Positions 15,056 through 38,583 of a stretch of 64,000 nucleotides of DNA are shown in pieces (the stretch's first letter is position 1; each line of letters starts with the position of its first letter). The stretch is from Bacteroidaceae bacterium (lineage in GTDB: Bacteria > Bacteroidota > Bacteroidia > Bacteroidales > Bacteroidaceae). Position numbers and translations under genes: made by a program. Below the pieces are notes generated by a model that saw nothing but the letters and a program-made list of their open reading frames with translations, had not been told where the DNA came from and ran no database searches. The DNA is taken from the NCBI GenBank assembly GCA_017615835.1, contig JAFZZI010000006.1, positions 1-64,000 on the forward strand. Reading direction: 5' to 3'.

Positions 15056-16285
15056 TTAACCAAGCATAGTAAGCAGAATGCCTGCTGCAACAGCAGAACC
15101 AATGACACCGGCAACATTCGGCCCCATGGCGTGCATAAGCAGGAAGTTGCTGGGATCCTCTTCCTGTCCTACAGTCTGGGATACGCGGGCTGCCATCGGA
15201 ACAGCTGAAACACCGGCGGAGCCTATCAGAGGATTGATTTTCTCCTTTAGGAACAGGTTCATCAGCTTGGCCAGCAAAATACCGCCTGCGGTGCCGCAAC
15301 TGAATGCCAGAATACCCATCAGGAGAATGAGGATTGTCTGAATGTTCAGGAATGAAGTCCAAGTGGCTGTGGCACCTACCGTCAGGCCAAGGAATATTAC
15401 AACAATATTCATGAGCTCGTTCTGCATCGTTTTGCTCAGGCGGTCTACAACTCCACATTCCTTTGCCAGGTTGCCAAGCATAAGACAGCCAATCAGAGGA
15501 GCTGCATCAGGCAGAATCAGTGCAACAATAGTAGTAATGGCTATCGGGAAGACAATCTTCTCGGTCTTGCTGACAGAACGGAGCTGCTTCATTTTGATGG
15601 AACGCTCCTGCTTGCTTGTCAAAGCCCTCATAATAGGGGGCTGTATGACCGGAACAAGTGCCATGTATGAATATGCTGCAATTGCAATTGGTCCCAGGAG
15701 TTCAGGAGCTAGTTTCGAAGTCAGGAAGATTGAAGTCGGGCCGTCAGCACCACCTATGATACCGATTGAGCCAGCCTGAGCTTCGGAGAATCCCCAGTTT
15801 GCAATAACGTCAGCCGAAGCACCGATTGATTCGAGTAACGGACCGATGGAGTTTGCCATGAGGAAAGTCAGGAATATGCCGAGCTGGGCAGCTGCCCCCA
15901 ACAGCAGACTCTTCGGATTCGCAATCAGCGGGCCAAAATCTGTCATGGCGCCTACACCCATGAAGATGAGGCAGGGATAGACTCCAGCCTTTACACCTAT
16001 GTACAGAATGTCAAGCAGTCCGCCTTCTCGCATTATGGTACCATAACTGTGGTAAGCCGGGTTGCTTGAGTCGAGAAATGCTGTCCAAAGCTCCGAATGG
16101 AACATACCGGATCCGGGAAGATTTGTAAGCAACATGCCAAAAGCAATGGGAAGGAGCAAGAGTGGCTCGTACTTCTTGTGAATTGCGAGGTACAGGAGAA
16201 AGAATGAGATGCATAGCATGACCGCCTGTCTCCACTCTATGTTCATGAAGCCCATGCCTTTGAAGAATTCAATTATATCACCCAT
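15056..16285 (-). CDS. oadB: Na+-translocating decarboxylase beta subunit
   Basis: About 409 residues, highly hydrophobic with around nine membrane segments. Carries the conserved GGADGPTS block of the OadB/MmdB/GcdB family. It decarboxylates carboxybiotin and exports Na+. The start is set at 16285 ([13 protein letters not shown]); an ATG at 16327 would add a polar leader and overlap the biotin carrier gene. It is last in the mce-mmdA-oadG-carrier-oadB operon, so the substrate is most likely methylmalonyl-CoA. Confidence 0.93.
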
Positions 16286-16319
16286 TTTACTCTTCTTTTG
16301 ATGATTGTGATTGGTAATG

Positions 16320-17054
16320 TCATGCAAGAACTATTAGCAGATCCTCCTGCATAACGGTCTGTCCGGCGGTTACTGCAATCTTTGCAACTTTGCCGTCACA
16401 GTCAGCTACGACCGCATTCTCCATTTTCATAGATTCGAGTGTAAGCAGTGTGTCGCCTTTTTTTACTTCCTGGCCTTCGCTTACAAGGACCTTGATTATT
16501 GAACCCGGCAGTGGACTTGAAATCTTGTGACCTCCTGCTGGAACCTCGGCTTTTGGAGTTTCGGCTTTTGGAGCAGCGGCGGCCTTGGGCGCCGGAGCAG
16601 GTTTCGGGGCAGGGGCTGGAGATGGGGCAGCTGCAATAGCAGCAGACTCTATTTCTACCAGCTTGTCATCCTGCATAACGTTTTTGCCAGGCTCGACAAA
16701 AATGGCCTTTACCGTACCGTCGGTTTCAGCAACGACATTGTTCTCCATCTTCATTGACTCCATTGTCAGAAGTATGTCACCCTTCTTCACGGCCTGACCT
16801 GCAGAAATCAGGACTTTCATAATTGAACCTGGAAGAGGAGACTTGACAGTAATGATGCCTCCGGCAGCCCTGGGTGCTGCAGATGAAGCCTGAGCGGCAG
16901 CAGCGCGGTAAACGGGGGCTGCGGCCTGCTCCTCCTTCTCATACCTGACAGTGTATGTGTTGCCGTTTACAACGACTTCGGCTACGTTGTCATCTATTTC
17001 ATTGACGGAGGTCTTGTACTCTTTTCCGTCGATCGTGAATTTGAATTCTTTCAT
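16320..17054 (-). CDS. Biotin carrier protein with two tandem biotinyl domains
   Basis: 244 residues. An N-terminal beta-rich segment (1-40) is followed by an Ala-rich linker, a first biotinyl domain ([11 protein letters not shown] to [10 protein letters not shown]), an Ala/Pro/Lys linker (about 138-172), and a second biotinyl domain ([11 protein letters not shown] to the end). Both contain an intact ESMKMEN acceptor motif, with lysines at 102 and 210. The usual decarboxylase carrier has one such domain and about 130-170 residues. The two domains are similar but not identical, so the duplication is not very recent. It sits between oadG and oadB, and moves CO2 from MmdA to OadB. Confidence 0.93.
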
Positions 17055-17056
17055 TG

Positions 17057-17422
17057 TTAACGATGTAAGTTGTTTATTCCGTATAGCTTTGAGTTCCAGG
17101 GGGAATAGCGCCGCTCTACTTTCTTGATTGTCACTTTTGTAGGCTCTTCGTCGTGGATGCCGTTGTAGAACAGATGCAATGCCATTGCGATGGCGGCAGT
17201 CGTAGCGGCATCGCCGGATTTTGCCGTTGCAGCCTCCTTTGGCAGAATGTCTGCCACTGCTTCACGAGCCGGTGCGGCTGCCTGCTTTGCCGGTTTCTCC
17301 TTCATCAGAAAGCCAAGTAACTGAAGTATGAAAATGAGGACGAAAAGAAGGCATAGCACCAGACAGAATCCCAGCAGTGTGACCATCCACACATGTGGCC
17401 AGTTAACTGATAACATTATCAT
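17057..17422 (-). CDS. oadG: Decarboxylase gamma subunit, OadG family
   Basis: 121 residues. One N-terminal membrane helix (VTLLGFCLVLCLLFVLIFIL), an Ala/Pro/Lys-rich linker, and a C-terminal helix with the AAIAMALHLFYNGIHDEEP segment. It holds alpha and beta subunits together on the membrane. Two bases separate it from the carrier gene. A second ATG two codons in is an equally good start. Confidence 0.85.
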   Translation of the reverse strand: MIMLSVNWPHVWMVTLLGFCLVLCLLFVLIFILQLLGFLMKEKPAKQAAAPAREAVADILPKEAATAKSGDAATTAAIAMALHLFYNGIHDEEPTKVTIKKVERRYSPWNSKLYGINNLHR

Positions 17423-17434
17423 GATTTCTGTTGT

Positions 17435-18997
17435 TTAAAGTGGAATGTTGCTGTGCTTCTTGAGAGGATTGGTCAGACGCTTAGTCTGAAGGTTCTCGAA
17501 GGCGCGGACTATTCTGGCGCGTGTGTATCGCGGTTCAATCACGTCGTCAATATAACCGCGGTTTGCTGCCTGATATGGCGAAGCGAACTTGTCGGTATAC
17601 TCAGCTTCCTTCTCGGCAATAAACTTCTTCCTCTCTTCGGGATCCTCGATTGCCTTCAAGGCTTTGGCTTGGAGCACGCCTACAGCACCGCTTGCGCCCA
17701 TAACGGCAATCTCGGCATTAGGCCAAGCGTAGCACATGTCACCCCTGAGCTGCTTGCAACTCATCACTATGTGGCTTCCTCCATAACTCTTGCGGACGGT
17801 AACAGTTACCTTGGGAACTGTAGCCTCACCATAAGCGAACATCAGTTTTGCGCCATGGTCTATGATACCTGCATATTCCTGTCCGGTTCCGCAAAGGAAT
17901 CCCGGTACGTCAACCAACGTCAGTATCTGAATGTTGAATGCATCGCAGAAACGGACGAAACGGGCGGCCTTCCTTGATGCGTCGCAGTCCAGGACACCGG
18001 CAAGCCAGTTGGGCTGGTTAGCAATAATACCGGTCGAGCGGCCGTTGAAACGTGCAAAACCGCAGATGATATTCTTTGCATAGTCCTTCTGTACTTCCAT
18101 GAAGTCACCATTGTCAACGATTGCATAAATGATGTCCTTCATGTTGTAAGGTTTGTTGGGGTCAGCCGGAACGATGTCATTCAGAACATCCTCAATACGT
18201 GCAGGGTCGTCGGTGCAGGCGACAAGTGGAGCTTCCTCCATATTGTTCTGAGGAATGAAACTGATCAGACGGCGTACCTCCTGCACGGCCTCTTCTTCGG
18301 TTGCAGCAACAAAATGGGTCACGCCTGACTTGGTGGCGTGGATGCGGGCACCACCCAGATCCTCAACCGAGACATCTTCTCCAGTCACGCTCTTGACCAC
18401 CTTCGGACCTGTAATGAACATGTATGAGTTCTGTTCGGTCATCATGATGAAGTCGGTGAGGGCAGGGCTATATACGGCACCACCGGCACAGGGACCGAAA
18501 ATGACAGAAATCTGGGGAATAACTCCGGAAGCAAGGATATTACGTTCGAATATTTCAGCATATCCTGCCAGAGCGCAAGCTCCCTCCTGTATGCGTGCAC
18601 CGCCAGAATCGTTAAGTCCAATGACTGGTGCGCCAAGTTTCATGGCCATATCCATCACCTTGCATATCTTTTGGGCCATGGTTTCGGACAGGGAGCCACC
18701 TATAACGGTAGCATCTTGGGCGAATACAAAAACAAGACGACCGTCTATTGTACCTGAACCTACTGCAACACCGTCGCCCAGAAAGACCTTATTTTCCATT
18801 CCGAAATCTGTGCATCGGTGGGTCAGGAACATGTCAACTTCTTCGAATGATCCTTCGTCAAGGAGCATGTTTATTCGTTCGCGGGCGGTATAGCTACCCT
18901 TGGCATGATGCTTTTCAATAGCCTTCTCGCCGCCTCCGGCCAATGCCTCGGCACGCTTGTCAACGAGCTTCTGTATTTTGCTCTGATTGTCTGCCAT
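17435..18997 (-). CDS. mmdA: Methylmalonyl-CoA decarboxylase alpha subunit / acyl-CoA carboxyltransferase
   Basis: 520 residues, two crotonase-fold halves typical of biotin-dependent carboxyltransferases. Conserved blocks: DSGGARIQEG, GPCAGGAVYSPAL, GGARIHATKSGV and, in the C-half, DVPGFLCGTGQE. It moves carboxylate from methylmalonyl-CoA to biotin on the carrier encoded two genes downstream. The neighbouring epimerase supports methylmalonyl-CoA over other substrates. Full length for the family. Confidence 0.94.
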   Translation of the reverse strand: MADNQSKIQKLVDKRAEALAGGGEKAIEKHHAKGSYTARERINMLLDEGSFEEVDMFLTHRCTDFGMENKVFLGDGVAVGSGTIDGRLVFVFAQDATVIGGSLSETMAQKICKVMDMAMKLGAPVIGLNDSGGARIQEGACALAGYAEIFERNILASGVIPQISVIFGPCAGGAVYSPALTDFIMMTEQNSYMFITGPKVVKSVTGEDVSVEDLGGARIHATKSGVTHFVAATEEEAVQEVRRLISFIPQNNMEEAPLVACTDDPARIEDVLNDIVPADPNKPYNMKDIIYAIVDNGDFMEVQKDYAKNIICGFARFNGRSTGIIANQPNWLAGVLDCDASRKAARFVRFCDAFNIQILTLVDVPGFLCGTGQEYAGIIDHGAKLMFAYGEATVPKVTVTVRKSYGGSHIVMSCKQLRGDMCYAWPNAEIAVMGASGAVGVLQAKALKAIEDPEERKKFIAEKEAEYTDKFASPYQAANRGYIDDVIEPRYTRARIVRAFENLQTKRLTNPLKKHSNIPL

Positions 18998-19030
18998 ATT
19001 GCTCTTAAGTTATAGATTTCAGAATATCGG

Positions 19031-19444
19031 TTATTTGGGCTGTTCGCAGAGTTCTGTAAGTACGCCGCATGTGCTCTTTGGATGCAGGAAGGCAATCATC
19101 AGATTCTCGGCACCCTTGCGGGGAGCTTCGTCAATGAGTTTCAGACCGGCTTCCTTAGCCTCCTTGAGGGCCTCTTCAACGTTGTCAACGTTGAATGCTA
19201 CGTGATGGACTCCTCCACGGCCACCGTTCTTCTCGATGAATTTGGCGATGGTTGATTCGGGGCAAGTCGGTTCCAGGAGCTCTATTTTGGTCTGTCCAAT
19301 CTTGAAGAAGGCTGTCTTGACCTTTTGATCCTCAACTACTTCAATGTTGTAGCATTTGCTTCCGGTTAAAAACTCAAAGAAAGGCATGCATTCCTCAAGC
19401 GAGGTTACTGCGATACCGAGATGTTCGATGTGCGAAGGTTTCAT
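19031..19444 (-). CDS. mce: Methylmalonyl-CoA epimerase
   Basis: 137 residues, a glyoxalase/bleomycin-fold protein. It begins with the metal-binding strand IEHLGIAV; the second module has GGVHHVAFNV and ends VLTELCE, giving the expected His/Glu metal ligands. It converts the R and S forms of methylmalonyl-CoA, linking mutase to the decarboxylase downstream. First gene of the operon, 33 bases before mmdA. Confidence 0.95.
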   Translation of the reverse strand: MKPSHIEHLGIAVTSLEECMPFFEFLTGSKCYNIEVVEDQKVKTAFFKIGQTKIELLEPTCPESTIAKFIEKNGGRGGVHHVAFNVDNVEEALKEAKEAGLKLIDEAPRKGAENLMIAFLHPKSTCGVLTELCEQPK

Positions 19445-25557: not shown

Positions 25558-26151
25558 ATGGAACTGGGATACAGAATTGTTCTAGCTTCAAACTCTCCGC
25601 GTCGCAGGGAGTTGCTGAATGGCCTGGGACTTGATTTTCAGGTACGCGTGCTGGATGGAATAGACGAGTCATATCCAGAGAGTCTCGATATGGTTGATAT
25701 TCCGCTATATATCTCGAAGAAGAAGGCGGAGGCATACCGCACCGGCATGGCCGATGACGAGTTGATTATCACTGCCGATACCGTCGTTGCAGTGGGTGAG
25801 CGCATTTTAGGCAAACCTGCTGACAACTTCGAGGCTGCTGACATGCTAAGGTTGCTTTCCGGACGCAGTCATCAGGTAGTGACAGGAGTGACCCTTATGA
25901 CAAAACAGAAGCAACACAGTTTCACTTCAACAACCGAAGTATGGTTCTCGCATCTGTCTGAAGAGGAGATAGAATACTACGTACAGAGATTCCATCCGCT
26001 GGACAAGGCTGGAGCGTACGGAATTCAGGAATGGATAGGATTTGTGGGTGTAGAACGTATAGAAGGTTCTTATTTCAATGTAGTTGGCCTTCCGATACAG
26101 AAACTCTATCGTGAATTGCTGTATTTCTGTCAGGGCAGAGTATCCAGATAA
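25558..26151 (+). CDS. maf: Maf family nucleotide pyrophosphatase
   Basis: About 197 residues. The signature SNSPRRRELL begins near residue 10; DESYPE, ITADTVV and GRSHQVVTGV follow. Maf enzymes hydrolyse non-canonical or specific NTPs (dTTP/UTP or m7GTP). Start at 25558 (MELGYRI) rather than 25537, because homologues begin just before the SNSPRR strand and this leaves a 4-base gap after kdsC. Its 3' end overlaps the convergent hdrA-like gene by 22 bases. Confidence 0.92.
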   Translation: MELGYRIVLASNSPRRRELLNGLGLDFQVRVLDGIDESYPESLDMVDIPLYISKKKAEAYRTGMADDELIITADTVVAVGERILGKPADNFEAADMLRLLSGRSHQVVTGVTLMTKQKQHSFTSTTEVWFSHLSEEEIEYYVQRFHPLDKAGAYGIQEWIGFVGVERIEGSYFNVVGLPIQKLYRELLYFCQGRVSR

Positions 26152-27149
26152 TCCTTGATTGCGATTGCTGCCGAGCGTCCGTCATTTATCGAGTCCCAAA
26201 TACTCAGTGGCCGTTTGCAGGTTCCGGCAGCGAACAGTCCGGGCTTGCCTGTATCGTTGTCGTAAAGGTGAGGGCTTATGGTCTTGATGAAGCCGTACTC
26301 ACCGCCTATTCCACATGAGGCACCTAACGTTCGTGTACCAGCCGAAGCTTCCATTCCTACCATCAGAACCAAAAGATCTACAGTTGTTCTCAATGGCATT
26401 CCGAGCAGTGTATCCTCTGTCTTTATCTGTACCCTGTCGTCAAAAGTTGCAGCAGCTTCAGATATGCGTCCCCGTATGAAATCGATTCCGTATTTTTCCT
26501 GAGCAGTGCGATACATCTCCTCAAATCCCTGTCCCCACATCCTCAAGTCCATGTAGAATACGGTCAAGTCTGTTCTGGGTAGCTGTTTTCTAACCTCGAT
26601 TGCCTGTTTGACTGCGGTGACACAGCAGACCTTAGAGCAGTAATGGTTGCCTGATTTCTCGTCTCGTGAACCGACACATTGCAGGAAGGCTATACGTTTA
26701 GGCATGTCGCCATGGCCGTTGACAATATTGCCTTCTCTTATCATCTTCTCCATCTCAAGCGAAGTGACTACTCCCTTGTATATGCCGTACCCGAGTTCCT
26801 CCTTGCGGCGTGCATCGAATGTCGAGTAGCCGGTAGCGATGAGCACTGAGTCTGCATACCATGCTTCGGACTTGCCGGAAACAAGTTGCCATTCGGTTCC
26901 TTTCCACTTTATTTCGACTATTTCAGTGCCGAAACAACGGGTAATGTTATCCTTCAGCAGCTTGTCTTCAAGCTCTGATACCATATCCGATGCAGCAGAG
27001 AAATCAGGAAACAGAAAAGCCTTGTCCTTAAGGTTTGAAAGGGGTGTTTCGGACTTCTCGAAAAGCAGTACCTCAACACCGCTGCCTGCAAGGACAGAAG
27101 CTGCTTCTATTCCGGCAGGACCGGCACCGATGATTGCTGTTTTCTTCAT
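26130..27149 (-). CDS. HdrA/QmoA-like FAD oxidoreductase
   Basis: 339 residues. FAD-binding start AIIGAGPAGIEAA, and the family-specific iron-sulfur block CVGSRDEKSGNHYCSKVCC (about residues 165-183). A second nucleotide segment ends AAGTCKRP, then SINDGRSAAIAIKDYL. It lacks the added ferredoxin domains of methanogen HdrA, so it is nearer the compact QmoA/HdrA-like flavoproteins. Last gene of a five-gene operon; 7 bases after hdrB. Role: electron transfer between a soluble donor or acceptor and the membrane partner (inferred). Confidence 0.85.
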   Translation of the reverse strand: MKKTAIIGAGPAGIEAASVLAGSGVEVLLFEKSETPLSNLKDKAFLFPDFSAASDMVSELEDKLLKDNITRCFGTEIVEIKWKGTEWQLVSGKSEAWYADSVLIATGYSTFDARRKEELGYGIYKGVVTSLEMEKMIREGNIVNGHGDMPKRIAFLQCVGSRDEKSGNHYCSKVCCVTAVKQAIEVRKQLPRTDLTVFYMDLRMWGQGFEEMYRTAQEKYGIDFIRGRISEAAATFDDRVQIKTEDTLLGMPLRTTVDLLVLMVGMEASAGTRTLGASCGIGGEYGFIKTISPHLYDNDTGKPGLFAAGTCKRPLSIWDSINDGRSAAIAIKDYLDTLP

Positions 27150-27156
27150 ATAGCCA

Positions 27157-28209
27157 TTATGTTAACAGGTTTGCCGGCTTTTCCGGATTCCTTAGAATCT
27201 TTCCGGATGCAGCGCGGTATTTTTCTTTGGAATTGTATGGAATACCAATCTTGTCCATGAGCCTCTCAGCCTGAATCTGATGAATCTGCAGCCCCAGCTC
27301 CCACGGGTCATAGCCCAGAAGAAGACCTGCCATCTCCTCGTATGTCAGAACAGGAATGCCGTATCCGTCGCGATCGTAGGTCTTGTGCTCCATCTCGGAT
27401 ATGGTGTATTGCCAACGGTCAAGAAACATTGAGCAGCCGGGACAGTTTGATACAATGAAGTCCGGTTCATAGGGTTCCATCGACTCCAGTTTCTTCTTTG
27501 TGTTGGATATGGAGTAGCCTCTGTTCTCCTGAATAAGATATTGGCGGAAACCGAATCCGCAGCAGTGGCGACGTTCGGGATAATCGACGACCTCGCCTCC
27601 CCACGACTCAATCATTCCGGCCAGAACATAGGGGAACTCTGCCTTGCCGACACCCTTGTCAGGAAATATCTTTGCATAGTGACATCCGATATGTTCAACC
27701 ACCCTTAGCGGTTTTCCTGTAAAACGGTTGACGAGCCTGTATTTCATCTTTTTTGCCAACTCGTTACGGAACTTGTAGATGATGTCTGATGCATGGGCTA
27801 TGTTCTCAGGCAGTTCGAATTCCCTCTTACAAGCCTTCCAAAGGTTCTCACGTGCTTTTTCAAGTAATTCGGGCTTCTCATTCCACATGTGGGTTATCTC
27901 CGTAAAGACTCCAAATGAAGTAACGCACGAAGGCACGTAGTTTTTATATCCGTGTTCAGTCATAAGCGAGAACAGTCTTGCAACTACAGTCATTGTGGTT
28001 TCAAGAGGAACGATATCGCTGTGATAACCTATTCCGGTGCATGTGTGCTGACGGAAGTCGTCAAAGATATCCTTGTCAAGTTCTTCGCGCAGGATTCTTA
28101 GAAATGCCGCCTCTGAACCGGGAAAGAATGTCTGTCTGATACAGCTTCTCTCGTAGAAGAAATGATTGTCTGCGATGACTTTCTGATATTCGTTCCAATA
28201 TCTGTTCAT
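27157..28209 (-). CDS. HdrB-like CCG-domain iron-sulfur protein
   Basis: 350 residues with CCG-type cysteine motifs: CVTSFG, then GCHYAK, RHCCGFGF and NCPGCSMFLD. In HdrB two such motifs bind unusual [4Fe-4S] clusters at the disulfide-reducing site. Here the N-terminal motif is reduced, with C-T-C in HTCTGIGY. It follows the membrane subunit by 6 bases. The in vivo substrate is unknown; a methanogen CoM-CoB disulfide is excluded by the organism. Confidence 0.82.
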   Translation of the reverse strand: MNRYWNEYQKVIADNHFFYERSCIRQTFFPGSEAAFLRILREELDKDIFDDFRQHTCTGIGYHSDIVPLETTMTVVARLFSLMTEHGYKNYVPSCVTSFGVFTEITHMWNEKPELLEKARENLWKACKREFELPENIAHASDIIYKFRNELAKKMKYRLVNRFTGKPLRVVEHIGCHYAKIFPDKGVGKAEFPYVLAGMIESWGGEVVDYPERRHCCGFGFRQYLIQENRGYSISNTKKKLESMEPYEPDFIVSNCPGCSMFLDRWQYTISEMEHKTYDRDGYGIPVLTYEEMAGLLLGYDPWELGLQIHQIQAERLMDKIGIPYNSKEKYRAASGKILRNPEKPANLLT

Positions 28210-28215
28210 AGCTGG

Positions 28216-30156
28216 TTATTTTATGAGATTAGCGGCTACTATTTCGGCTATGTCCTGTACGGGATACTCGTTTGTAGAGTGAAGGAAGGCCTTCTTGCAC
28301 ATAGGACACGCAGTAGCGATGGCATCAACAGGTCTCTCTGTCAGGTTGCGTAATGCATCGTTGCGTATAGTAGTCTGTTCTTCGATTGACAATACAGTGT
28401 TGCCCATATTGAACCCGCAGCAGATACTCTTCTCACGCTGGTTGCGGGTTTTCTGCAAAGTTGTGACAGCATTGAGTACGGAGCGGGGTTGGTCATATAT
28501 GCCGCATCCCCGGCCAAGTTCGCAGGGATCGTGGTACGAGACGCGTCGGCTGTCACGTCCGACGCTTATGCGTCCTTTGCGTATTAGTATGTCAATGTAT
28601 TCCGTGTGATGCATTACCGGTATACCTAAATCGTACTCGTCCTTGAACGAGCGGTAGCAGATAGGACAGGAGGTTACCAGCATGGTCGCACCTGAATTAA
28701 TAATCATTTCAGTGTTCTTCTTCTTCAGATCATCTGCCTGGTTTCTGAATCCCTGCTGGCGCAGCGGACGTCCGCAGCAGATGGAACGGTCACGGTCCAT
28801 GTACCAGTATTTCTGTCCTGCAGCCTCGAATATTCTCATCATGGCTTCTGGAATACCCGGAGTGAGATGGGACATGCAACCTCCGAAGAAAACGACTCGG
28901 CCGATGGCATTGAAAGGTTTGGGAGTGGTGAGATAGGAATAGTTGCCGGAGGAATCAAGTTTACCCTTGTTGCGAGTCATCCGCCTTATGGCCGAGATGT
29001 CAATTCCCACCGGACAATCCTCAACACATCGCTCACACATCAGACAGTTGTCTGCAATAATGCTCATTTTGGCAGGACGGTTATGGTTGCGCAGCCCCCT
29101 GATCAGATATACCGGCTGAATTCTGTGGTTGTTCAGATCCTTGTCAAGCGGACATCCCTGAATGCATACACCGCAACGCGAACAGGCATTAAGTTCAAAC
29201 TTAGTATAACCTGTGGGTTGCTCGCTCTCTTTCACGCCGATCTTGCGGAACCATATCAGCAACAATTCAGTGAAGATATGCATGTAGCGGGTGAAAGGCA
29301 TTGAGAAGAAAAATACCAGCAATGCCAGCGAGTAGCAAAGCCATGATGCCCACTCCAGGTGTCCGGAAATGTCGGGGTTGAATAGGCTGCCAATCGCGTT
29401 TGTCAGGAATCCGCCGTTTTGGTACATACTGGCTGTTATTGATTCAGACAGCAACCTCAGGGGAAATATCAGCCATAGTGAGAGCTTTGCGAGCCTGTCA
29501 AAAAGGTTATGAGACGTAGTTCGTCGCATTCCGACGCTTTTTGACCAGATTCTCTTTGCAAAGGCCAGTGTCAAGCCAAGAAATATGTACAGCAGTATGC
29601 CATCCATGAGGTCGGCATACTGTTTGGAATGCTTGAACATGGCAGGCTCCTTATGGATGAAATAGTTGTAGAAAATCGCAGCATAGAATGGCCTGTGGTA
29701 TTTAAGATGTATTTTGTGGCCTGCCTCATCGTACGTTACACGCTTTGTAAGAAGGTACCTTCTGTCCTTGTCAAATGAATACCATCCGTCTTGTTCAATA
29801 AGAGTGTTGAGCTGTTCTATAGACTGCTCATGATTGAAACAGGCTATGGTTCGGTTGCTCTGTATTGCTCCGACCACTATAAGAAGAGCCCAACCCAACG
29901 CGAACGACTGGTGCATGATGCCCAATACGATGTTCTTACGCAAAATACGGAAATGGACCAGTCCTTCTCTGAACATCTCCCACAGCGCGGGGATGGTCTT
30001 CCACGAGAACCAGTTATGACGGATTATTGTGCGTTGGGCCTCGTCAAACTGACTTATCCAATGGATGTATTTGTATGTGCAGATAGCCAGTAGAAGCAAT
30101 ACTCCGACAAGGAATGGAATAACGAAAGCACTGTATGGAAATATGGATATTTTCAT
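28216..30156 (-). CDS. Membrane-anchored HdrE/HdrD-type fusion Fe-S protein
   Basis: About 646 residues. The N-terminal part has about five membrane helices (AFVIPFLVGVLLLLAICTY; NIVLGIMHQSFALGWALLIVV; and others) resembling the NarI/HdrE cytochrome b family. A dicluster ferredoxin domain follows (CSRCGVCIQGCP; CLMCERCVEDCP), then two CCG motifs (FFGGCMS with ICCGRPLRQ; HDPCELGRGCG with ICCGFNMG). Start at 30156, because this ATG overlaps the upstream stop as ATGA and begins the first helix. It would connect the soluble Hdr-like proteins to the quinone pool. Confidence 0.85.
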   Translation of the reverse strand: MKISIFPYSAFVIPFLVGVLLLLAICTYKYIHWISQFDEAQRTIIRHNWFSWKTIPALWEMFREGLVHFRILRKNIVLGIMHQSFALGWALLIVVGAIQSNRTIACFNHEQSIEQLNTLIEQDGWYSFDKDRRYLLTKRVTYDEAGHKIHLKYHRPFYAAIFYNYFIHKEPAMFKHSKQYADLMDGILLYIFLGLTLAFAKRIWSKSVGMRRTTSHNLFDRLAKLSLWLIFPLRLLSESITASMYQNGGFLTNAIGSLFNPDISGHLEWASWLCYSLALLVFFFSMPFTRYMHIFTELLLIWFRKIGVKESEQPTGYTKFELNACSRCGVCIQGCPLDKDLNNHRIQPVYLIRGLRNHNRPAKMSIIADNCLMCERCVEDCPVGIDISAIRRMTRNKGKLDSSGNYSYLTTPKPFNAIGRVVFFGGCMSHLTPGIPEAMMRIFEAAGQKYWYMDRDRSICCGRPLRQQGFRNQADDLKKKNTEMIINSGATMLVTSCPICYRSFKDEYDLGIPVMHHTEYIDILIRKGRISVGRDSRRVSYHDPCELGRGCGIYDQPRSVLNAVTTLQKTRNQREKSICCGFNMGNTVLSIEEQTTIRNDALRNLTERPVDAIATACPMCKKAFLHSTNEYPVQDIAEIVAANLIK

Positions 30157-30494
30157 TTCTTCTCTTCCTCGAGCATTTTCCGCATGTTGATAATCAGCTG
30201 TCGCAGATTTACGCCGCGTGGGCACACAAGGACGCATTTCCCGCAAAGCATGCACTTCCTGAGTTCTTCGGCCAAGCCTTCCGTATTGCCGCGTCTGAAC
30301 ATGGTGTGCAGACGTCTTATATTGTAATCCGTGAATTGTCTGGCTGAGCAGGTGGCACTGCAGCAACCGCACTGGAAGCATCGTTTGAACGAAGGTACCC
30401 TTCTTGCCAGTTCTTCATATTTGGCCTTGGCGGTTACGTCAAGGTTTTCGCTTCTGGGTTTCTTTATTGAAAATCCAAATTCAGGCATAGTCAA
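30153..30494 (-). CDS. HdrC-like 2x[4Fe-4S] protein
   Basis: 113 residues with two CxxCxxCxxxC motifs (CFQCGCCSATC and CMLCGKCVLVCP) and helical linkers, typical of HdrC. Both ends overlap neighbours by ATGA: start in the stop of the larger HdrC-like gene, stop in the start of the membrane subunit. This indicates tight translational coupling and fixed stoichiometry. Confidence 0.87.
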   Translation of the reverse strand: MTMPEFGFSIKKPRSENLDVTAKAKYEELARRVPSFKRCFQCGCCSATCSARQFTDYNIRRLHTMFRRGNTEGLAEELRKCMLCGKCVLVCPRGVNLRQLIINMRKMLEEEKK

Positions 30495-31096
30495 TCGCTA
30501 GTTAGTCCGTCCAGAAAAGCTTTTCCTCCAGTTACCTCGAAAATGCTTCGTAGTTCGTCCATAGTCTTTTTGTCGATTTTACGGAGCGCACCAGGACCGT
30601 CACCATGGTAGTTGGCACCGAATCGGGGGGCCACCTCTTCGATGTTGTTTCGGTACCACTCCCACACAGGACCCTGTTCAGGATGCTTTGAAGGCAAGAC
30701 TATATCAGGATGAACGCAATAGCCTGTGTTAAGAATATTGCTGCCAATACCGTCTGCAATTTCGGTTTGCTGTTGCCCGAGACTATTGTCCTTGTAGTAG
30801 CCGATTTCCTGTGACACCGTGCGCAGTATTGAGATGACCATTCCGGGAACGTTTCCACGCGGGCAGCGCGTTTTGCAAGAGAGGCATTGACCGCATTCCC
30901 AGATAGTTTCGGAGCGTAGGAGCCTTTCTATTGATTCCTCGTCTCCGCGCTGGACTGTATCGCAAATCCTTCTGGGGTCATAGTCAAAAAATTCGGCTGC
31001 GGGACATATTGCGGTGCAAATTCCGCAGTTCATGCAAGCCTTCAAGGCGTCTTTGTAACGGATGTCCTGTCTGATAAAATCAACCAAATACCCCAT
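30491..31096 (-). CDS. Second, longer HdrC-like 2x[4Fe-4S] protein
   Basis: About 201 residues. Two ferredoxin-type sites, CMNCGICTAICP and CGQCLSCKTRCP, occupy the first half. The second half (about 100 residues) has no motif I recognise and ends in helices. Start at 31096 (MGYLVDF) chosen over 31126, because the predicted -7 element lies at 31122-31115. First gene of the Hdr-like operon. Having two HdrC-like proteins in one operon is unusual. Confidence 0.85.
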   Translation of the reverse strand: MGYLVDFIRQDIRYKDALKACMNCGICTAICPAAEFFDYDPRRICDTVQRGDEESIERLLRSETIWECGQCLSCKTRCPRGNVPGMVISILRTVSQEIGYYKDNSLGQQQTEIADGIGSNILNTGYCVHPDIVLPSKHPEQGPVWEWYRNNIEEVAPRFGANYHGDGPGALRKIDKKTMDELRSIFEVTGGKAFLDGLTSD

Positions 31097-31114
31097 GAGT
31101 ATGATTTTTGAATC

Positions 31115-31152
31115 CAAAGATAGCATTTAATTGACTTTATTATATATCTTTG
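31115..31152. promoter_or_regulatory. Divergent -7 elements between the Hdr-like operon and tatAC
   Basis: TATCTTTG on the - strand (31122-31115) precedes the Hdr-like operon, and TATCTTTG on the + strand (31145-31152) precedes tatA. Both match TAnnTTTG. The -33 positions are not clear for either. Confidence 0.5.
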
Positions 31153-32314: not shown

Positions 32315-34207
32315 TCATTTCTTTTTTTGGACGTTCATTGAGTCCTTCCACTTACCTTCAGCAGAGATTACCTTGTTGTCTGCCGGTTTATTGAAGGCTT
32401 TTTTTACCTCTTTGTCTTGCTTTTTCACATCCGATTTACCAAGCCAGGCAACAGATTGACCCTTTGCAACTGTCGCTCCCTGCTCAGCATCTATGCCGGC
32501 AATCTTGCAGTCCATGGGGGCTGGGAGAGGAACAATTCCGTGGTGAGTCTGAAGGTATGCAATAATCTCGCCTTCAGCGAATCTTGTGCCGAATGCAGGG
32601 GCTTTCGAATCTTCATTATAGTCGAGTTCCCATAGCACACGCCCATTGCACGGAGCATCCAAAGGTTCTGCATCGGGGTGAAGAATGGCGCGTTTTTCTG
32701 AAGCACTGAAGTGCTTGACAGGCCCTCCTGCGGTACCGGCCTGAGCCTTTTCCATACGTTCCATGAGATCTTTGTTGAACTGATCTTTGGCCTGTCCCGA
32801 CTTGAACTCGCGATACTGCTTTTCGTGCATGGCAAACTCGAACAGCTCCTCGTCGTCCTGACCGCGATCCCAGCCAAGTTCATTCATCATCTTCTCGAAT
32901 CGTGGCAATTCGTCCGGGTAGAGTGCCTGAGGATCTCCTGTATAGAACTCGAAATTCTTCTCTTTGGCAAGTTCTACTATTTCCGGAGCAAGCTCGCCTG
33001 GCAGTTTGCCTGACTTACCTAGAATCATGCCCCACATGGCGGGATCCATACGCGTGAATGGCTTCTCGTCCATCGACTTTGAGTAGAGGTTCATTAGAGC
33101 GGCATTCTTTACATACTGGCTGAACGGTGTAACAAGACAAGGTGTACCAAGCATCGGCCAAATACGCTGAACCTCGTCGAAAAGTTCGACCAGCAATTCG
33201 TCCTCTGAAAGTTCGTGTTCTCCTTTCTTGCGCAGGTTGGCGTTGATGGCTGCATGCATACCTTTCAGATCGGCCATCAGTGAGCCCATCATACCGCCCG
33301 GTAGTCCGCAACCTACCAGCAAAGATGTCATTAGTGAGTTTTTCGGATCAATCCAATAACCAAGGAAGTCGTCCATGAAGCTCTGTGTGAGGCTACGTGC
33401 CTCCATATATGCTTTCATGTTGATATCCTTGACAAGGAAACCTGCATCCTTGAGCATAGCCTGTATGGTTATAACATCCGGATGTACCTTACCCCAGGAA
33501 AGGGGTTCCATTGCAACATCCAGAACATCACCGCCAGCCTTTGCTACTTCAAGCATCGATGCTACCGAGAATCCAGGTCCGGTATGACCATGATATTGTA
33601 TTATAATATCGGGGTGATTCTCCTTGATTGCCTTGACGATAGTTCCGAGCATCACCGGACGTCCTATTCCGGCCATATCCTTAAGACATATTTCCTGAGC
33701 ACCACCCTCAATCAGCTGTTCGGCAAGATTGATGTAGTATTCAACAGTGTGAACCTTAGAGTAAGTTATGCACATTGTTGCCTGTGCTGTCATGCCGGCA
33801 GCCTTTGCCCACTTGATAGAAGGAATTATGTTTCGCGGATCGTTGAGACCGCAGAAGATGCGGGTGATGTCAGTCCCCTGTGCATGCTTCACCTTGTACA
33901 TCAGTTGCCTGACATCTGCAGGAACAGGATTCATGCGGAGGGCGTTAAGACCACGGTCCAGCATGTGTGTCTTGATGCCTGCTTCATGGAACGGTTTCGT
34001 AAAGGTACGGACTGCGAGGTTCGGGTTCTCGCCATAAAGCAGGTTTACTTGCTCCATGGCACCGCCGTTTGTCTCAACGCGGTCAAAGCATCCCATGTCA
34101 ATTATTACCGGAGCAATCTTGGCAAGTTGGTCCTTTCGTGGAACATACTTTCCGGACGACTGCCACATATCACGGTAGACCAAACTGAATTGAACTTCTT
34201 TTTTCAT
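32315..34207 (-). CDS. OadA/PycB-like carboxyltransferase with a biotin-less C-terminal domain
   Basis: 630 residues. N-terminal DRE-TIM barrel carboxyltransferase: YRDMWQSSG, the catalytic-lysine block EICLKDMAGI, and metal-binding YHGHTGPG. A conserved PYC_OADA domain follows. The C-terminal barrel-sandwich domain is recognisable (GEIIAYL, then GATVAKGQSVAWLG). However, the residues that should read EAMKM are QTHHG (553-557), so the biotin lysine is His556. It is likely to use a separate carrier, such as the tandem-biotinyl protein at 16320. Substrate oxaloacetate or pyruvate (family knowledge). It stands alone after a terminator. Confidence 0.88.
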   Translation of the reverse strand: MKKEVQFSLVYRDMWQSSGKYVPRKDQLAKIAPVIIDMGCFDRVETNGGAMEQVNLLYGENPNLAVRTFTKPFHEAGIKTHMLDRGLNALRMNPVPADVRQLMYKVKHAQGTDITRIFCGLNDPRNIIPSIKWAKAAGMTAQATMCITYSKVHTVEYYINLAEQLIEGGAQEICLKDMAGIGRPVMLGTIVKAIKENHPDIIIQYHGHTGPGFSVASMLEVAKAGGDVLDVAMEPLSWGKVHPDVITIQAMLKDAGFLVKDINMKAYMEARSLTQSFMDDFLGYWIDPKNSLMTSLLVGCGLPGGMMGSLMADLKGMHAAINANLRKKGEHELSEDELLVELFDEVQRIWPMLGTPCLVTPFSQYVKNAALMNLYSKSMDEKPFTRMDPAMWGMILGKSGKLPGELAPEIVELAKEKNFEFYTGDPQALYPDELPRFEKMMNELGWDRGQDDEELFEFAMHEKQYREFKSGQAKDQFNKDLMERMEKAQAGTAGGPVKHFSASEKRAILHPDAEPLDAPCNGRVLWELDYNEDSKAPAFGTRFAEGEIIAYLQTHHGIVPLPAPMDCKIAGIDAEQGATVAKGQSVAWLGKSDVKKQDKEVKKAFNKPADNKVISAEGKWKDSMNVQKKK

Positions 34208-34265: not shown

Positions 34266-35483
34266 TTATGCGTCAATTGCCTTGCGGAACCACCTGGCAC
34301 GGTCACAACCTTCGCCAGTGTTCAGAAGCACCAGATTGCCATCTCGGATATCTCCCTTTTTCAGAGCCTCATAGAATCCGGCAATGCAGACGGCAGACGC
34401 CGGTCCCATATAGATCCCACGCTCTTTCTTTACGATACGTCCGTATTCCTCAAGTCCCTCTTCGCTGATACGCAGGAAACAGCCGCCGCTATTCCTGACG
34501 ATAGGGCCGACCAGAGGGTACATGCCTGGAGTCCCGGCAGTGAGTATCGAAATACGTGTCCTTGGAGTTACTGACGGGAAATGCTTCTCCCATCCTTCGG
34601 GGAAGCCATTTTCAACAGCCCATTCCCAAGCCTGAACCATCGGATCGCAGGTGTCTTGTTGTACAAGAAGCATTTTTGGCATTTTATGGTGGGGATATGC
34701 AGCGGCAATCTCGCGCATACCTTTCTCAAATGCTATCGGACTTGTTCCTCCTGCAACGGCCTGCATATAGACGTCAGGTATGCGACCCAGTTGGCGCATA
34801 CATTCGAACACCAGCGTCTTCTTGGCCTCAACGCGTATAGGGTCAATATTACCTGCTGAAATCATTACCTTGTGTTCTTTGTGGAATTCGGCAGCCTCTG
34901 CCTTGGCCTGGCCGTAGCCCCCCGTTGAAACTGTAAGGTTTTGTCCGGTGGCCATTATGGCTTCGCGGGTCTCATCGTACATATCATTAGGGGCAAAGAC
35001 GTCAAACTTTACTCCGGCCTTGGCAAGATATGTGGCGTAGGCAGTAGCGGCATTTCCTGTCGACGCCAGACAGTATTCGTTTACGCCATGCTGACTGAAG
35101 AGAGTGGCGGCAAGTGAAGCCGCTATATCTTTGAATGTGCCGGTACCGCGGTTAAGGTCGTTGCGACATACCACTACACGACAGTCAACACCATACTTGC
35201 TGCGGGCAAAGTCGCTAAGGAAACTCCACTCCTCGATGGGTACTGCACCTTCTCCGAAACTCACGATACCCTCCCTGCTTTCAATCGGAAGAAAGTCGTA
35301 ATAGTGGTAAAGGTTTTCGGGCTCTGTGTCGCTTGAACAAAGCTTGTCCAACAAGCGGTAATCGGTTGTATAGACAGCCTCGGCATGGTTGCTGCCGCAC
35401 TCGCAGAGTTGGTCCTGTCTGAACCATTCGGCGAACCCCCCTATTGTTTTGCCACACTTCCTGCAGACTAGCCGGTATTTCAT
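34266..35483 (-). CDS. Threonine-synthase-like PLP enzyme; candidate cysteate synthase
   Basis: 405 residues. N-terminal zinc-ribbon cysteines C7, C10, C27, C29. PLP fold type II: lysine 118 in NRGTGTFKD, phosphate loop around STGNAATAYATY, and a C-terminal GEGCDRARWF end. It is homologous to threonine synthase, but the loop before the lysine (NRGTG) departs from the usual NPTGS. No other threonine-pathway gene is adjacent. It is 5 bases downstream of an alpha-oxoamine synthase. Methanosarcina cysteate synthase is a known threonine synthase relative that makes cysteate from phosphoserine and sulfite. The same role here is inference from context. Confidence 0.75.
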   Translation of the reverse strand: MKYRLVCRKCGKTIGGFAEWFRQDQLCECGSNHAEAVYTTDYRLLDKLCSSDTEPENLYHYYDFLPIESREGIVSFGEGAVPIEEWSFLSDFARSKYGVDCRVVVCRNDLNRGTGTFKDIAASLAATLFSQHGVNEYCLASTGNAATAYATYLAKAGVKFDVFAPNDMYDETREAIMATGQNLTVSTGGYGQAKAEAAEFHKEHKVMISAGNIDPIRVEAKKTLVFECMRQLGRIPDVYMQAVAGGTSPIAFEKGMREIAAAYPHHKMPKMLLVQQDTCDPMVQAWEWAVENGFPEGWEKHFPSVTPRTRISILTAGTPGMYPLVGPIVRNSGGCFLRISEEGLEEYGRIVKKERGIYMGPASAVCIAGFYEALKKGDIRDGNLVLLNTGEGCDRARWFRKAIDA

Positions 35484-35488
35484 TTCTT

Positions 35489-36745
35489 TTACTTGAAAAG
35501 GTTCATGTCCTTCATCTCGCCTTTGTACAGGCCTGCATCAAGTTTTGCCTTTACCTCCTTGAACACGCTTATGGTGCGTGCCACATGGTCGAGGGTGTGC
35601 GATGCGGTCGGTATGATACGCAGCATAATCTGTCCCTTGGGGACAACAGGATATACAACCATCGAGCAGAAAATTCCGTAGTTCTCGCGAAGGTCAACCA
35701 CGACATTGGTGGCCTCGTTGACATCGCCCTGGAAGAAAACCGGGGTGACCGGCGACTCAGTGCGGCCAATGTCGAAGCCCTCCTCCTTCAGGCCGCTCTG
35801 CAGGGCGTTGACCACTTCCCATAGATGCTCGCGGTATTCGGGATGAGTCTTGATGAGTTCCAGTCGCTTCATGTTGCCCACCACCAGCGGCAACGGCAAT
35901 GATTTGGCGTAAATCTGCGAACGCATGTTGAACTTCAGATGCTGAATGACTTCAGGTTCAGAGTTTACGACACCGCCGATGCTGGCCATGCTCTTTGCGA
36001 ATGCGTCGAATATGACATCTATCTCGTCAGTCACTCCATAATGCTCGGCTGTGCCTCGCCCGTGTGCTCCCATAGTACCGAAACCATGGGCATCATCAAT
36101 CAGTATGCGGAAAGGATACTTCTTCTTGAGTTCGACTATACCATCCAGATGTCCGAGGTCGCCGGCCATACCGTAAACACCTTCGGTTATCACAAGCACG
36201 CCACCGCCCTGTTCGTCTGCCAGCTTGCAGGCGTGGTTCAGTTGCTTCTCAAGGCTTGCCATGTCGTTGTGGCGGTACGTGTACCGCTTGGCCATGCTCA
36301 GGCGCATTCCGTCGAGGATGCAGGCATGGGCCTCAGAGTCATAGACAATGACATCGTTGCGGCTCGTCAAGACATCAATTATTGAGATCATGCCCTGATA
36401 GCCGAAGTTCATTACCAGTCCGGCGGGCTTGCCGATGAACTCGGCAAAGTCATTCTCGAACTTTATGTGGAGGTCGGTGTTGCCTGACATCATTCGGGCT
36501 CCCATTGGAGCGGCAAGACCATATTTCGCTGCAGCCTCAGCGTCAGCTTTGCGGACTTCGGGAAGGTTTGCCAGTCCCAGATAGTTGTTGAGACTCCAGT
36601 TCAGCACCTTCTTGCCGTTGAATACCATCTCCGGACCGATTTCGCCTTCCAGACGGGGAAACATGAAATAGCCGTCTGCCTTGCCCTGATACTGTCCGAG
36701 CGGGCCCGGAGTAGCCTTGATTCTCTCAAAAATATCCCTGATCAT
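35489..36745 (-). CDS. Alpha-oxoamine synthase; candidate cysteate acyltransferase (sulfonolipid synthesis)
   Basis: 418 residues, PLP fold type I of the KBL/BioF/SPT group. Lys251 in FDAFAKSMASIGG binds PLP; DDAHGFG at 217-223 holds the PLP-contacting Asp and His; SEAHACILDG replaces the common DHASIVDG. The N-terminal segment (IFERIKATPGPLG, then YFMFPRLEGEIG) differs from canonical Bacteroides serine palmitoyltransferase. Family reaction: amino acid plus acyl thioester gives an aminoketone with loss of CO2. The neighbour gene suggests cysteate as amino acid, giving the capnine precursor. BioF and KBL are less likely, since no biotin or threonine dehydrogenase gene is nearby. Confidence 0.75.
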   Translation of the reverse strand: MIRDIFERIKATPGPLGQYQGKADGYFMFPRLEGEIGPEMVFNGKKVLNWSLNNYLGLANLPEVRKADAEAAAKYGLAAPMGARMMSGNTDLHIKFENDFAEFIGKPAGLVMNFGYQGMISIIDVLTSRNDVIVYDSEAHACILDGMRLSMAKRYTYRHNDMASLEKQLNHACKLADEQGGGVLVITEGVYGMAGDLGHLDGIVELKKKYPFRILIDDAHGFGTMGAHGRGTAEHYGVTDEIDVIFDAFAKSMASIGGVVNSEPEVIQHLKFNMRSQIYAKSLPLPLVVGNMKRLELIKTHPEYREHLWEVVNALQSGLKEEGFDIGRTESPVTPVFFQGDVNEATNVVVDLRENYGIFCSMVVYPVVPKGQIMLRIIPTASHTLDHVARTISVFKEVKAKLDAGLYKGEMKDMNLFK

Positions 36746-36907: not shown

Positions 36908-36913
36908 CAGCCA

Positions 36914-36993
36914 AGTGTGGGGTGCTGACCCGAGAGGAAAGCTGAGATTATACCCTTTGAACCTGATTTGTGTAATTGCAACGTAGGAAAAAC
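36914..36993 (+). ncRNA. TPP riboswitch (thi box)
   Basis: The conserved elements occur in order: GGGGTGCT at 36918-36925, CTGAGA at 36942-36947, TACCC at 36951-36955, GAACCTGAT at 36959-36967, and CGTAGGAAA at 36982-36990. These are the TPP-binding core and closing strands. It sits about 95 bases before tenA-thiD, so thiamine pyrophosphate should turn the pair off. I see no clear terminator between it and tenA, so control may be at translation initiation. The rest of the 36746-37088 spacer contains only a -7-like CAAAGTTA (36793-36800, - strand) for the upstream gene. Confidence 0.93.
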
Positions 36994-37088
36994 TTTCGTT
37001 CTTGTAGTTTCCGGGTTTTTGTCTTCGTATTCCTCTGGCAACTGGTTCCCATCAACCTGACCTATATTTTATTGATAGACTTAACGAT

Positions 37089-37772
37089 ATGAAATGGAGT
37101 GAAAATGTCTGGAAACAGTCTGAGAGAATTTACCGTGCCATATTGGAGCAGCCTTTTCTGAAAGAGATGGCTGCAGGAATCCTTGCGGTCGATAAGTTTG
37201 ACCGTTATCTGGCCCAGGATGAGATTTATGTAGGCAATTATGGCCGCTCAATGTATGCCCTGTCCGACATAATTCCGGATCCATCGCAGCAGGAGATGTT
37301 CAGAGCCTTTGCAAAGGAAGGAATAGAAAGCGAACAGATTATGCACAAACTGCTTATCGACCGTTTCGGAATCAACACAGAAGTCAGGCCATCGGTTGTG
37401 ACGTCTACTTACAATGCACATACCGAAGCCGCAGTAGCCACCGGAATCAAAGAGGTAGGACTGGCCGCCATACTTCCATGCGCCTGGGTTTACAACGAAG
37501 TCGGCCTTGAGGTTCTGAAGTTTGCTCAAATGGATGGGAATCCCTATGCAGAGTGGATGTCCGAGTATGGGAACCCTGAGTTTACGAAAGGCGTCAGAAT
37601 GCTGGTTGACATGGCTGACGAGTGGTCAGAGACGGTAACCTCCGAAGTGCGTGAACGTATGGATTCCGCATTCGTCGAGGCCACACTTTTCGAATATGCT
37701 TTTTGGGATTACGGATACTGCGGTGACTCAAAGTCATACGATTACATGCTTCACACTGAAAACTGGATTTGA
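37089..37772 (+). CDS. tenA: Aminopyrimidine aminohydrolase / thiaminase II
   Basis: 227 residues, all-helical TenA family. Recognisable segments: LAQDEIYVGNYGRSM, the EATLFEYAFWDYG stretch with the catalytic Glu, and Tyr/Asp residues around. It recovers hydroxymethylpyrimidine from degraded thiamine, feeding ThiD seven bases downstream. Control by the TPP riboswitch fits a salvage role. Confidence 0.92.
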   Translation: MKWSENVWKQSERIYRAILEQPFLKEMAAGILAVDKFDRYLAQDEIYVGNYGRSMYALSDIIPDPSQQEMFRAFAKEGIESEQIMHKLLIDRFGINTEVRPSVVTSTYNAHTEAAVATGIKEVGLAAILPCAWVYNEVGLEVLKFAQMDGNPYAEWMSEYGNPEFTKGVRMLVDMADEWSETVTSEVRERMDSAFVEATLFEYAFWDYGYCGDSKSYDYMLHTENWI

Positions 37773-37779
37773 GAAATAT

Positions 37780-38583
37780 ATGAAAACCTATCCTAGAGTT
37801 CTGGCAATTGCCGGCAGTGATTCGGGAGGAGGTGCCGGAATACAGGCCGATATAAAGTCCATAAGTGCCACAGGTTCGTATGCTGCGTGTGCCATAACTG
37901 CCATAACCGTCCAGAATACATTGGGTGTAAGTGATGTCTTGCCTATACCACCAGAAATAATTGCAGCACAGATTGACGCTGTTGTCACCGATATAGGTGC
38001 CGATGCAGTGAAGATCGGAATGCTGCACTCCTCAGAGGTCATCAAGGCCATCAGGGCAAAGCTTCATGAACTGTCTGTCGGCAATATAGTGCTCGATCCG
38101 GTAATGGTGTCAACCTCAGGGCACCGTCTTATTGAAGAGGAGGCCGTCGCCACTCTGGTGTCGGAACTTATTCCGATGGCAAGGGTTATCACCCCTAACA
38201 TTCCTGAGGCAGAGATACTCTCAGGAGAAAAAATCTCCTGTCAGGACGACCTTCCCAGGATAGCCCGAAAGCTTTCTTTCGGTGGAAAGGTTTCGGTGAT
38301 GATGAAAGCCGGTCATCTTTCAGACAGGAGTGTGGTTGACATTTTCTACAACGCTGAGGAGGACCGTATGGTTGAACTGCCTTCAAGACGTGTTGACACG
38401 CCAAACACTCATGGTACAGGCTGTACTCTCTCTTCTGCCATAGCATCGTATCTGGCTCAGGGCATGGATCCAGATTCCGCAGTTACTTTCGCAAAAAATT
38501 ACATTGCAGGAGCAATAGAATCAGGCAGTCATTACATTATCGGCCATGGACACGGCCCGGTTGATCACTTCTGGAAAAGATAG
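37780..38583 (+). CDS. thiD: Hydroxymethylpyrimidine (phosphate) kinase
   Basis: About 267 residues, ribokinase-like fold. Motifs: AIAGSDSGGGAGIQADIK at the N-terminus, ITAITVQNT, and the anion hole/catalytic DTPNTHGTGCTLSSAIAS. Phosphorylates HMP and HMP-P for thiamine synthesis. The start is at 37780 (MKTYPRV); longer in-frame options overlap tenA without homology. The synthases thiE/thiG are not in this window. Confidence 0.95.
   Translation: MKTYPRVLAIAGSDSGGGAGIQADIKSISATGSYAACAITAITVQNTLGVSDVLPIPPEIIAAQIDAVVTDIGADAVKIGMLHSSEVIKAIRAKLHELSVGNIVLDPVMVSTSGHRLIEEEAVATLVSELIPMARVITPNIPEAEILSGEKISCQDDLPRIARKLSFGGKVSVMMKAGHLSDRSVVDIFYNAEEDRMVELPSRRVDTPNTHGTGCTLSSAIASYLAQGMDPDSAVTFAKNYIAGAIESGSHYIIGHGHGPVDHFWKR

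Follow-up and report, generated by a model that had tools for sequence, protein, structure and literature searches.

What do two adjacent genes, one for an alpha-oxoamine synthase and one for a relative of threonine synthase, make together in a Bacteroidaceae genome? The pair occupies positions 34266-36745 of the window, by which we mean the whole 64,000-nucleotide stretch analyzed here (positions 1 to 64,000 of contig JAFZZI010000006.1, assembly GCA_017615835.1), and an earlier note on this DNA had read it as giving cysteate and then 3-dehydrocapnine. Both open reading frames (ORFs) are intact and, as that note described, lie on the - strand with a gap of 5 bases between them, the upstream one encoding 418 and the downstream one 405 amino acids:

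35489..36745, - strand: SulA/CapB-type cysteate acyl-acyl carrier protein (ACP) transferase, an alpha-oxoamine synthase with 3-ketocapnine as its expected product (PDB phmmer; Lys251, Lys281, Asn53, His140, Arg376)
34266..35483, - strand: protein X, an enzyme with threonine-synthase fold, pyridoxal 5'-phosphate (PLP) and a zinc ribbon, and a putative cysteate synthase using O-phospho-L-serine and sulfite (family cut-offs, genetics)

We propose that this pair is a two-gene operon forming the start of the sulfonolipid (capnine) pathway, in which X represents a third family of cysteate synthases beside TIGR03844 and CapA and SulA acts next, a reading to which we give a probability of roughly 85%. 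Sulfite is the expected sulfur donor of a cysteate synthase. In the pathway we envisage, X, carrying PLP on Lys118, would form L-cysteate by eliminating the phosphate of O-phospho-L-serine and adding sulfite in its place; SulA, carrying PLP on Lys251, would condense cysteate with acyl-ACP and release CO2 to give 3-ketocapnine; a short-chain reductase (SDR), encoded beside X in most congeners and not at the window locus, would reduce 3-ketocapnine to capnine; and N-acylation would follow. The earlier note's pathway is upheld by the identity of SulA and by the presence of a separate threonine synthase, while for the role of X the support comes from genetics.

On sequence evidence, the identity of the upstream gene as a SulA/CapB-type cysteate acyltransferase is secure. 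Its product matches PF00155 and has Lys251 at the PLP position, as the note had seen, and its best solved match in a PDB phmmer search is A. finegoldii SulA (7u7h, 2e-185), compared with 2.7e-168 for the cysteate-C-fatty acyltransferase 28eh and 3e-75 for the best serine palmitoyltransferase (SPT; 3a2b). SulA takes cysteate, not serine or phosphoserine, and is distinguished by Lys281, which is Ala in SPT (PMC9304779). Both Lys251 and Lys281 are present in 54/54 SulA rows, across which Asn53, His140 and Arg376 are also invariant, and position 248 is Ala in 22 of the 54, the window's included. The top NCBIfam match of the enzyme is nonetheless the CFB-group SPT model, which might suggest that it is an SPT making sphingolipids and that the pair is no sulfonolipid operon. 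We regard this as scarcely credible: the score of 325.9 bits is about half of the 640-bit cut-off, the SulA structures match far better, Lys281 is present, and the genome has its true SPT at another locus (L002, 647.9 bits versus 640; numbers prefixed G, C and L are our handles for genomes, contigs and loci), with Ala at 281. Assignment to SPT or KBL, which the note had raised as a danger to its reading, is therefore rejected. With a separate SPT above the cut-off, the organism appears equipped for sphingolipids and sulfonolipids both. Beside the SPT gene (G000:C20), an ORF on the opposite strand reads like a lipid kinase.

Protein X is harder to place among curated families. It matches PF00291 (PALP) and, in agreement with the note, possesses Lys118 and an N-terminal pattern, C7-x2-C10 ... 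C27-x-C29, typical of a zinc ribbon. Lys118 is kept in 37/37 deduplicated family rows, and the cysteines nearly so (C27 in 37 rows, C7 in 36, C29 in 35 and C10 in 34). Against TIGR03844, the archaeal-type cysteate synthase (hereafter T), X scores 114.8 bits where the cut-off is 324.9, a threshold that the T proteins of two sister species clear with 409.4 and 436.3 bits; the CapA model NF053679 is not among the 14 families that X matches at E 0.001. We therefore reject X as a member of TIGR03844 and as a CapA. The note had linked X to the cysteate synthase of Methanosarcina: the role is supported on genetic grounds, while the family membership is not, since X is separate from both TIGR03844 and CapA. 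In a quick tree, the 37 rows of X fall on one side and the 34 of T on another, with SH-aLRT values of 93 and 100, and very long branches between the groups leave the relation of X to T unsettled there. The loop Y-x-Q-A-x-x-x-G-T is common to X and T and does not occur in the 11 rows of a threonine-synthase-like comparison set (set Z).

The similarity of X to threonine synthases raises the possibility that X is a second such enzyme, converting O-phosphohomoserine to threonine and lying beside sulA by chance. The highest-scoring curated model for X is indeed the threonine synthase PRK08197 (162.8 bits, cut-off 303), solved threonine synthases (5.9e-23) come ahead of the cysteate synthase 9k3c (1.4e-8), and the zinc ribbon is common to X and set Z. 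Against this, no threonine-synthase model that X matches gives it a score above the cut-off, thrC included (TIGR00260; 63.3 bits, cut-off 167.1), and the genome has a ThrC of its own: among the four PALP proteins found there (CysK, a TrpB-like protein, true ThrC and X), L012 passes thrC at 312.5 versus 167.1. X is thus rejected as the genome's ThrC, and the note's worry that it might be the only copy does not apply. Several families moreover have sulA and CysH in the vicinity of X, and the enzyme with which X alternates is a curated cysteate synthase. A second threonine synthase is accordingly, in our view, highly unlikely.

This alternation belongs to the genetic case for X as a cysteate synthase. 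The source is a metagenome-assembled genome (MAG) of 2.3 Mb in 32 contigs, with completeness of 81.83% and contamination of 0.4%. We compared 37 genomes of Candidatus Colenecus, the name for GTDB genus UBA1179, a member of Bacteroidales and Bacteroidaceae from diverse mammalian guts (PMC8957277); an order set of 149 tool-drawn Bacteroidales genomes; and 80 named loci, kept out of 294, 58 of the 80 having at least 2 kb on either side of X. Titles of the named loci read Bacteroidales, Bacteroidaceae, Prevotellaceae, Bacteroidia or Bacteroidetes, and many of them mention ruminant or horse samples. Order-wide, X was called with alignment A1 from 472 bits upward and T above the curated TIGR03844 cut-off, so that a partial T of 247 amino acids in G146, which falls under the cut-off, is left out of the count; p values for exclusion and co-occurrence count genomes as independent and ignore kinship.

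Within the genus, 30 of the 37 genomes encode X, five encode a T above the cut-off (G017, G019 with two copies, G025, G029 and G034), none encodes both, and two encode neither (Fisher p 4.8e-5): G003 lacks the two genes, and G013 retains a 24-residue X remnant. The same exclusion holds across the order set, with X in 31 genomes, T in 36 and no overlap (p 5.8e-5), and among the 108 SulA-positive genomes, with X in 27, T in 34 and again no overlap (p 5.6e-6). SulA accompanies T in 34/36 order genomes and X in 27/31. In a FastTree phylogeny of SulA, several of whose inner nodes are weak, T-bearing G019 sits among X-bearing congeners, and one clade mixes X-bearing G117, G156 and G031 with T-bearing G044, G137 and G054 and four congeners. 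G019 carries two different TIGR03844 copies, on contigs C59 and C23, together with a SulA of the type found in X-bearing congeners.

Physical linkage points the same way. Read by hand, sulA and X are adjacent in 27/30 X-bearing genus genomes, the exceptions being G031, where they are ~2 kb apart, and G001 and G028, where they lie on different contigs. In the order set, where 27 genomes carry both genes, 13 of them place X and sulA on one contig and no more than 10 kb apart (also read by hand); a generous chance rate of 1% per genome gives 2e-19 for this. Among the 58 flanked named loci, 41 have SulA on the same strand within 2 kb of X, 38 have an SDR there and 32 have the two together. T lies within 10 kb of sulA in 0/34 order genomes with T and SulA, G109 alone having both on one contig, ~92 kb apart; in four of the five T-bearing congeners T is 5.6-5.7 kb from sulA. 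Some X loci are irregular in themselves: the X gene of G032 (C54:42206-43417, L018) has one in-frame TGA, reflecting decay or a sequencing error, and two X loci each occur in the records of one MAG for RUI419 (L262 and L285) and RGIG3770 (L294 and L295), through a second copy or a mixed bin.

Several observations weigh against a cysteate synthase of a third family. The grouping of X with T in the tree depends on very long branches, and X shares 19 group-specific columns with set Z versus 9 with T. Co-occurrence of X with SulA is by itself weak (27/31, p 0.03), and neither this statistic nor mutual exclusion is corrected for phylogeny. Four X genomes lack SulA (G058, G072, G120 and G163, two of them at least 95% complete), and X may serve another purpose there. 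Conversely, 47 SulA genomes of the order set have neither X nor a full-length T, these being the two families scored; in the examined stretches of SulA-only genomes, tblastn with X and CysK queries revealed no PALP gene linked to sulA. Finally, 14 of the 27 order genomes with X and sulA show no close linkage, the genes lying on different contigs and many of the MAGs being fragmented. Taking substitution, linkage and co-occurrence together, we conclude on these genetic grounds that X is very probably a cysteate synthase.

The neighborhood of X in other families bears on its sulfur donor. CysH, a reductase of adenosine phosphosulfate (APS) or phosphoadenosine phosphosulfate (PAPS), produces sulfite. 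In other families its gene is flanked by sulA and X in four genomes (G181, G105, G121 and G092), and in three more (G098, G140 and G058) it is accompanied by CysD and CysN no more than 10 kb from X, making seven genomes with CysH near X; in the 80 named loci we saw no match to CysH, CysD or CysN. In G058 (L079), which is 99% complete and without SulA, X directly follows CysH-CysD-CysN and may make cysteate for another purpose. The fold alone does not fix the nucleophile, and the same chemistry class takes in O-phosphoserine sulfhydrylases, which combine phosphoserine with sulfide to give cysteine, and other beta-replacement enzymes; if X were one of these, cysteate would come from elsewhere. 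This is decidedly unlikely, since the genome has a CysK above its cut-off (449.6 versus 351), the neighboring CysH of other families makes sulfite, and T, the enzyme X alternates with, is a curated cysteate synthase; no sulfite reductase was named among the selected neighbors that were annotated.

If X does supply cysteate to SulA, a reductase for 3-ketocapnine would complete the route to capnine. The note's remark that the short-chain reductase is not adjacent holds for this species, in whose 64-kb window tblastn with an SDR query found none, but not for most of its relatives: the named loci include 29 X-bearing congeners, and in 27 of these an SDR of PRK06181 type adjoins X, the exceptions being L236 (G031) and L254 (G014). 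A. finegoldii and C. gleum have several SDRs active as 3-ketocapnine reductases, none of them clustered with Cys or cfat (PMC11211663). The SDR beside X in congeners is a natural candidate for the 3-ketocapnine reductase.

Where would the sulfite come from in genomes of the window's type? The window contains, ~3 kb from X and separated from it by two other genes, a set of genes resembling those of heterodisulfide reductase (Hdr), at 26130-31126:

30491..31126, - strand: candidate HdrC-like 4Fe-4S protein (NF041779 hetero_SS_HdrC 7.8e-26, under the curated cut-off)
30153..30494, - strand: candidate second, small HdrC-like 4Fe-4S protein (NF041779 2.4e-11, under the curated cut-off)
28216..30150, - strand: candidate HdrD/DsrK/TfrB-like protein with Fer4 and two CCG stretches (PF02754 in two stretches, 1.9e-24; TfrB model 3.4e-31, under the cut-off)
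27157..28209, - strand: candidate HdrB-like protein with a CCG domain (NF041780 HdrB 1.4e-43, under the cut-off)
26130..27149, - strand: candidate short HdrA-like flavoprotein of 339 amino acids (NF040770 HdrA2 3.7e-66, covering model positions 318-556 of 777 only, under the cut-off)

The start of the HdrD/DsrK-like protein was set at ATG 30150, the mechanical ORF extending to 30381, and its long N-terminal part, judged by eye, reads as membrane helices. The Hdr-like set recurs near sulfonolipid genes: in G017, G034, G029 and G025 it has sulA-SDR on one side and T on the other, and it adjoins T in G044, sulA in G177 and X-sulA in G077, G144 and G117; HdrB was found in 29/80 named loci. HdrB relatives (alignment A3, E 1e-60) occur in 49/149 order genomes, once as a 138-amino-acid fragment (G099). 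All but one of these 49 are SulA-positive (48; p 1.2e-7), the exception being the X-bearing G058; the Hdr genes are unlinked to sulA, X or T in most of the 49. CysH is present in 95/149 order genomes at E 1e-30 (93 over the cut-off), in 83/108 SulA genomes versus 12/41 others (p 1.3e-7), and HdrB or CysH in 99/108 versus 12/41 (p 8e-14). In the 27 genomes with X and SulA the two nearly alternate, seven having Hdr only, 17 CysH only, two both and one neither (p 3e-4), which suggests that the Hdr-like set may be another sulfite source. Alternation is weaker in genomes with T and SulA (seven Hdr only, 14 CysH only, nine both, four neither) and in those with SulA and neither X nor T (two, 20, 21 and four, respectively).

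In sulfur oxidizers, the sHdr complex is proposed to oxidize protein-bound sulfane sulfur to sulfite (PMC6067878), which makes a sulfite-supplying role for the Hdr-like set attractive, and the set may on this analysis belong to the sulfonolipid pathway. More specifically, gut Bacteroidales could have an anaerobic route from sulfur to lipid, in which the Hdr-like complex would oxidize bound sulfane sulfur to sulfite for X, whose cysteate would pass to SulA, with CysH supplying sulfite in lineages that have the APS/PAPS reductase; were CysH to replace Hdr in this way, X-bearing genomes would mostly have one source. We offer this scheme tentatively and hold it to be possible, if rather doubtful. 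Counting against it are 32 SulA genomes with both Hdr and CysH and nine with neither, in statistics that ignore phylogeny, and the Hdr-like set may instead mediate electron transfer unrelated to sulfite. No lipoate-binding protein was named among the annotated neighbors, with no search specific to LbpA/GcvH made. Two further observations concern these clusters: a glyoxalase-fold protein of ~360 amino acids recurs beside both CysH-type and Hdr-type sulfonolipid clusters (29/80 named loci; for example L074:264-1340 and L221:6237-7331), and L349 (G090:C107) has a second CysH copy ~4-5 kb from Hdr-like genes.

Elsewhere in the window, genes at 15056-19444 and 32315-34207 (-) read like a biotin-dependent decarboxylase set; the latter matches PYC_OADA and directly follows X here, and follows the SDR in most congeners. 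An Rfam search of the whole window gave no match at the gathering threshold, a thiamine pyrophosphate (TPP) riboswitch candidate at 36908-37007 (+) scoring just under it (51.4 versus 54.3 bits, E 3e-9). The candidate lies upstream of ORFs 37089-37772 and 37651-38583, which look like candidate genes for TenA and ThiD. Scans for promoters (5 found versus 3.2 expected) and terminators (3 versus 4.0) gave nothing above chance.

A third type of cysteate synthase would have consequences beyond this locus. Gut-bacterial sulfonolipids have been connected in mice with inflammation and with the survival of grafts (PMC9304779), and a survey of human-microbiota genomes sought sulfonolipid producers via Cys and cfat genes (PMC11211663). 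If X is what we propose, such surveys can miss producers, notably among uncultured Bacteroidales of the rumen and horse gut, and X and T provide a clear case of non-orthologous replacement within one genus. If Hdr-like genes supply sulfite, this would explain how anaerobes without CysH obtain sulfur for sulfonolipids. In the titles and abstract openings of the literature on sulfonolipids, cysteate synthase and Colenecus/UBA1179, where subscription papers fell mostly outside coverage, we found neither the X family nor the Hdr link.

Among known systems, the window SulA shares with 7u7h (alfi_1224, PMC9304779) the numbering of its PLP-binding Lys251, as well as Lys281 and the trio Asn53/His140/Arg376, but has Ala at PLP-contact position 248 where 7u7h has Thr. 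With sHdr (PMC6067878), the likeness is one of subunits, of size and, in some relatives, of gene order: HdrC-HdrB-HdrA-HdrC2-HdrD in L348 and L220 resembles hdrC1B1A-hyp-hdrC2B2, and the HdrA-like protein is short too, whereas the window has the order C-C2-D-B-A and an HdrD/DsrK-like protein in the place of B2. Among relatives of X, the threonine synthase PRK08197, nearest of the curated models by score, shares zinc ribbon and fold, and X differs from it by a score under the cut-off, loop residues unlike those of set Z, and gene context. CapA of Capnocytophaga uses sulfite as donor and is kin to cystathionine beta-synthase (CBS). The reaction expected of this CBS-like enzyme (NF053679) is the same as that proposed for X, since CapA acts on phosphoserine to make cysteate (PMC10191378), but X has no match to its model. 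The same review names two cysteate-synthase types and assigns to Alistipes and Odoribacter a homologue of the archaeal enzyme rather than CapA. That archaeal type, TIGR03844, which also occurs in Bacteroidales, has no zinc ribbon, whereas X has one, scores far under the cut-off and falls on the other side of the tree; yet the two have in common the PALP fold, the YxQA...GT loop and a SulA partner, and they alternate between sister species.

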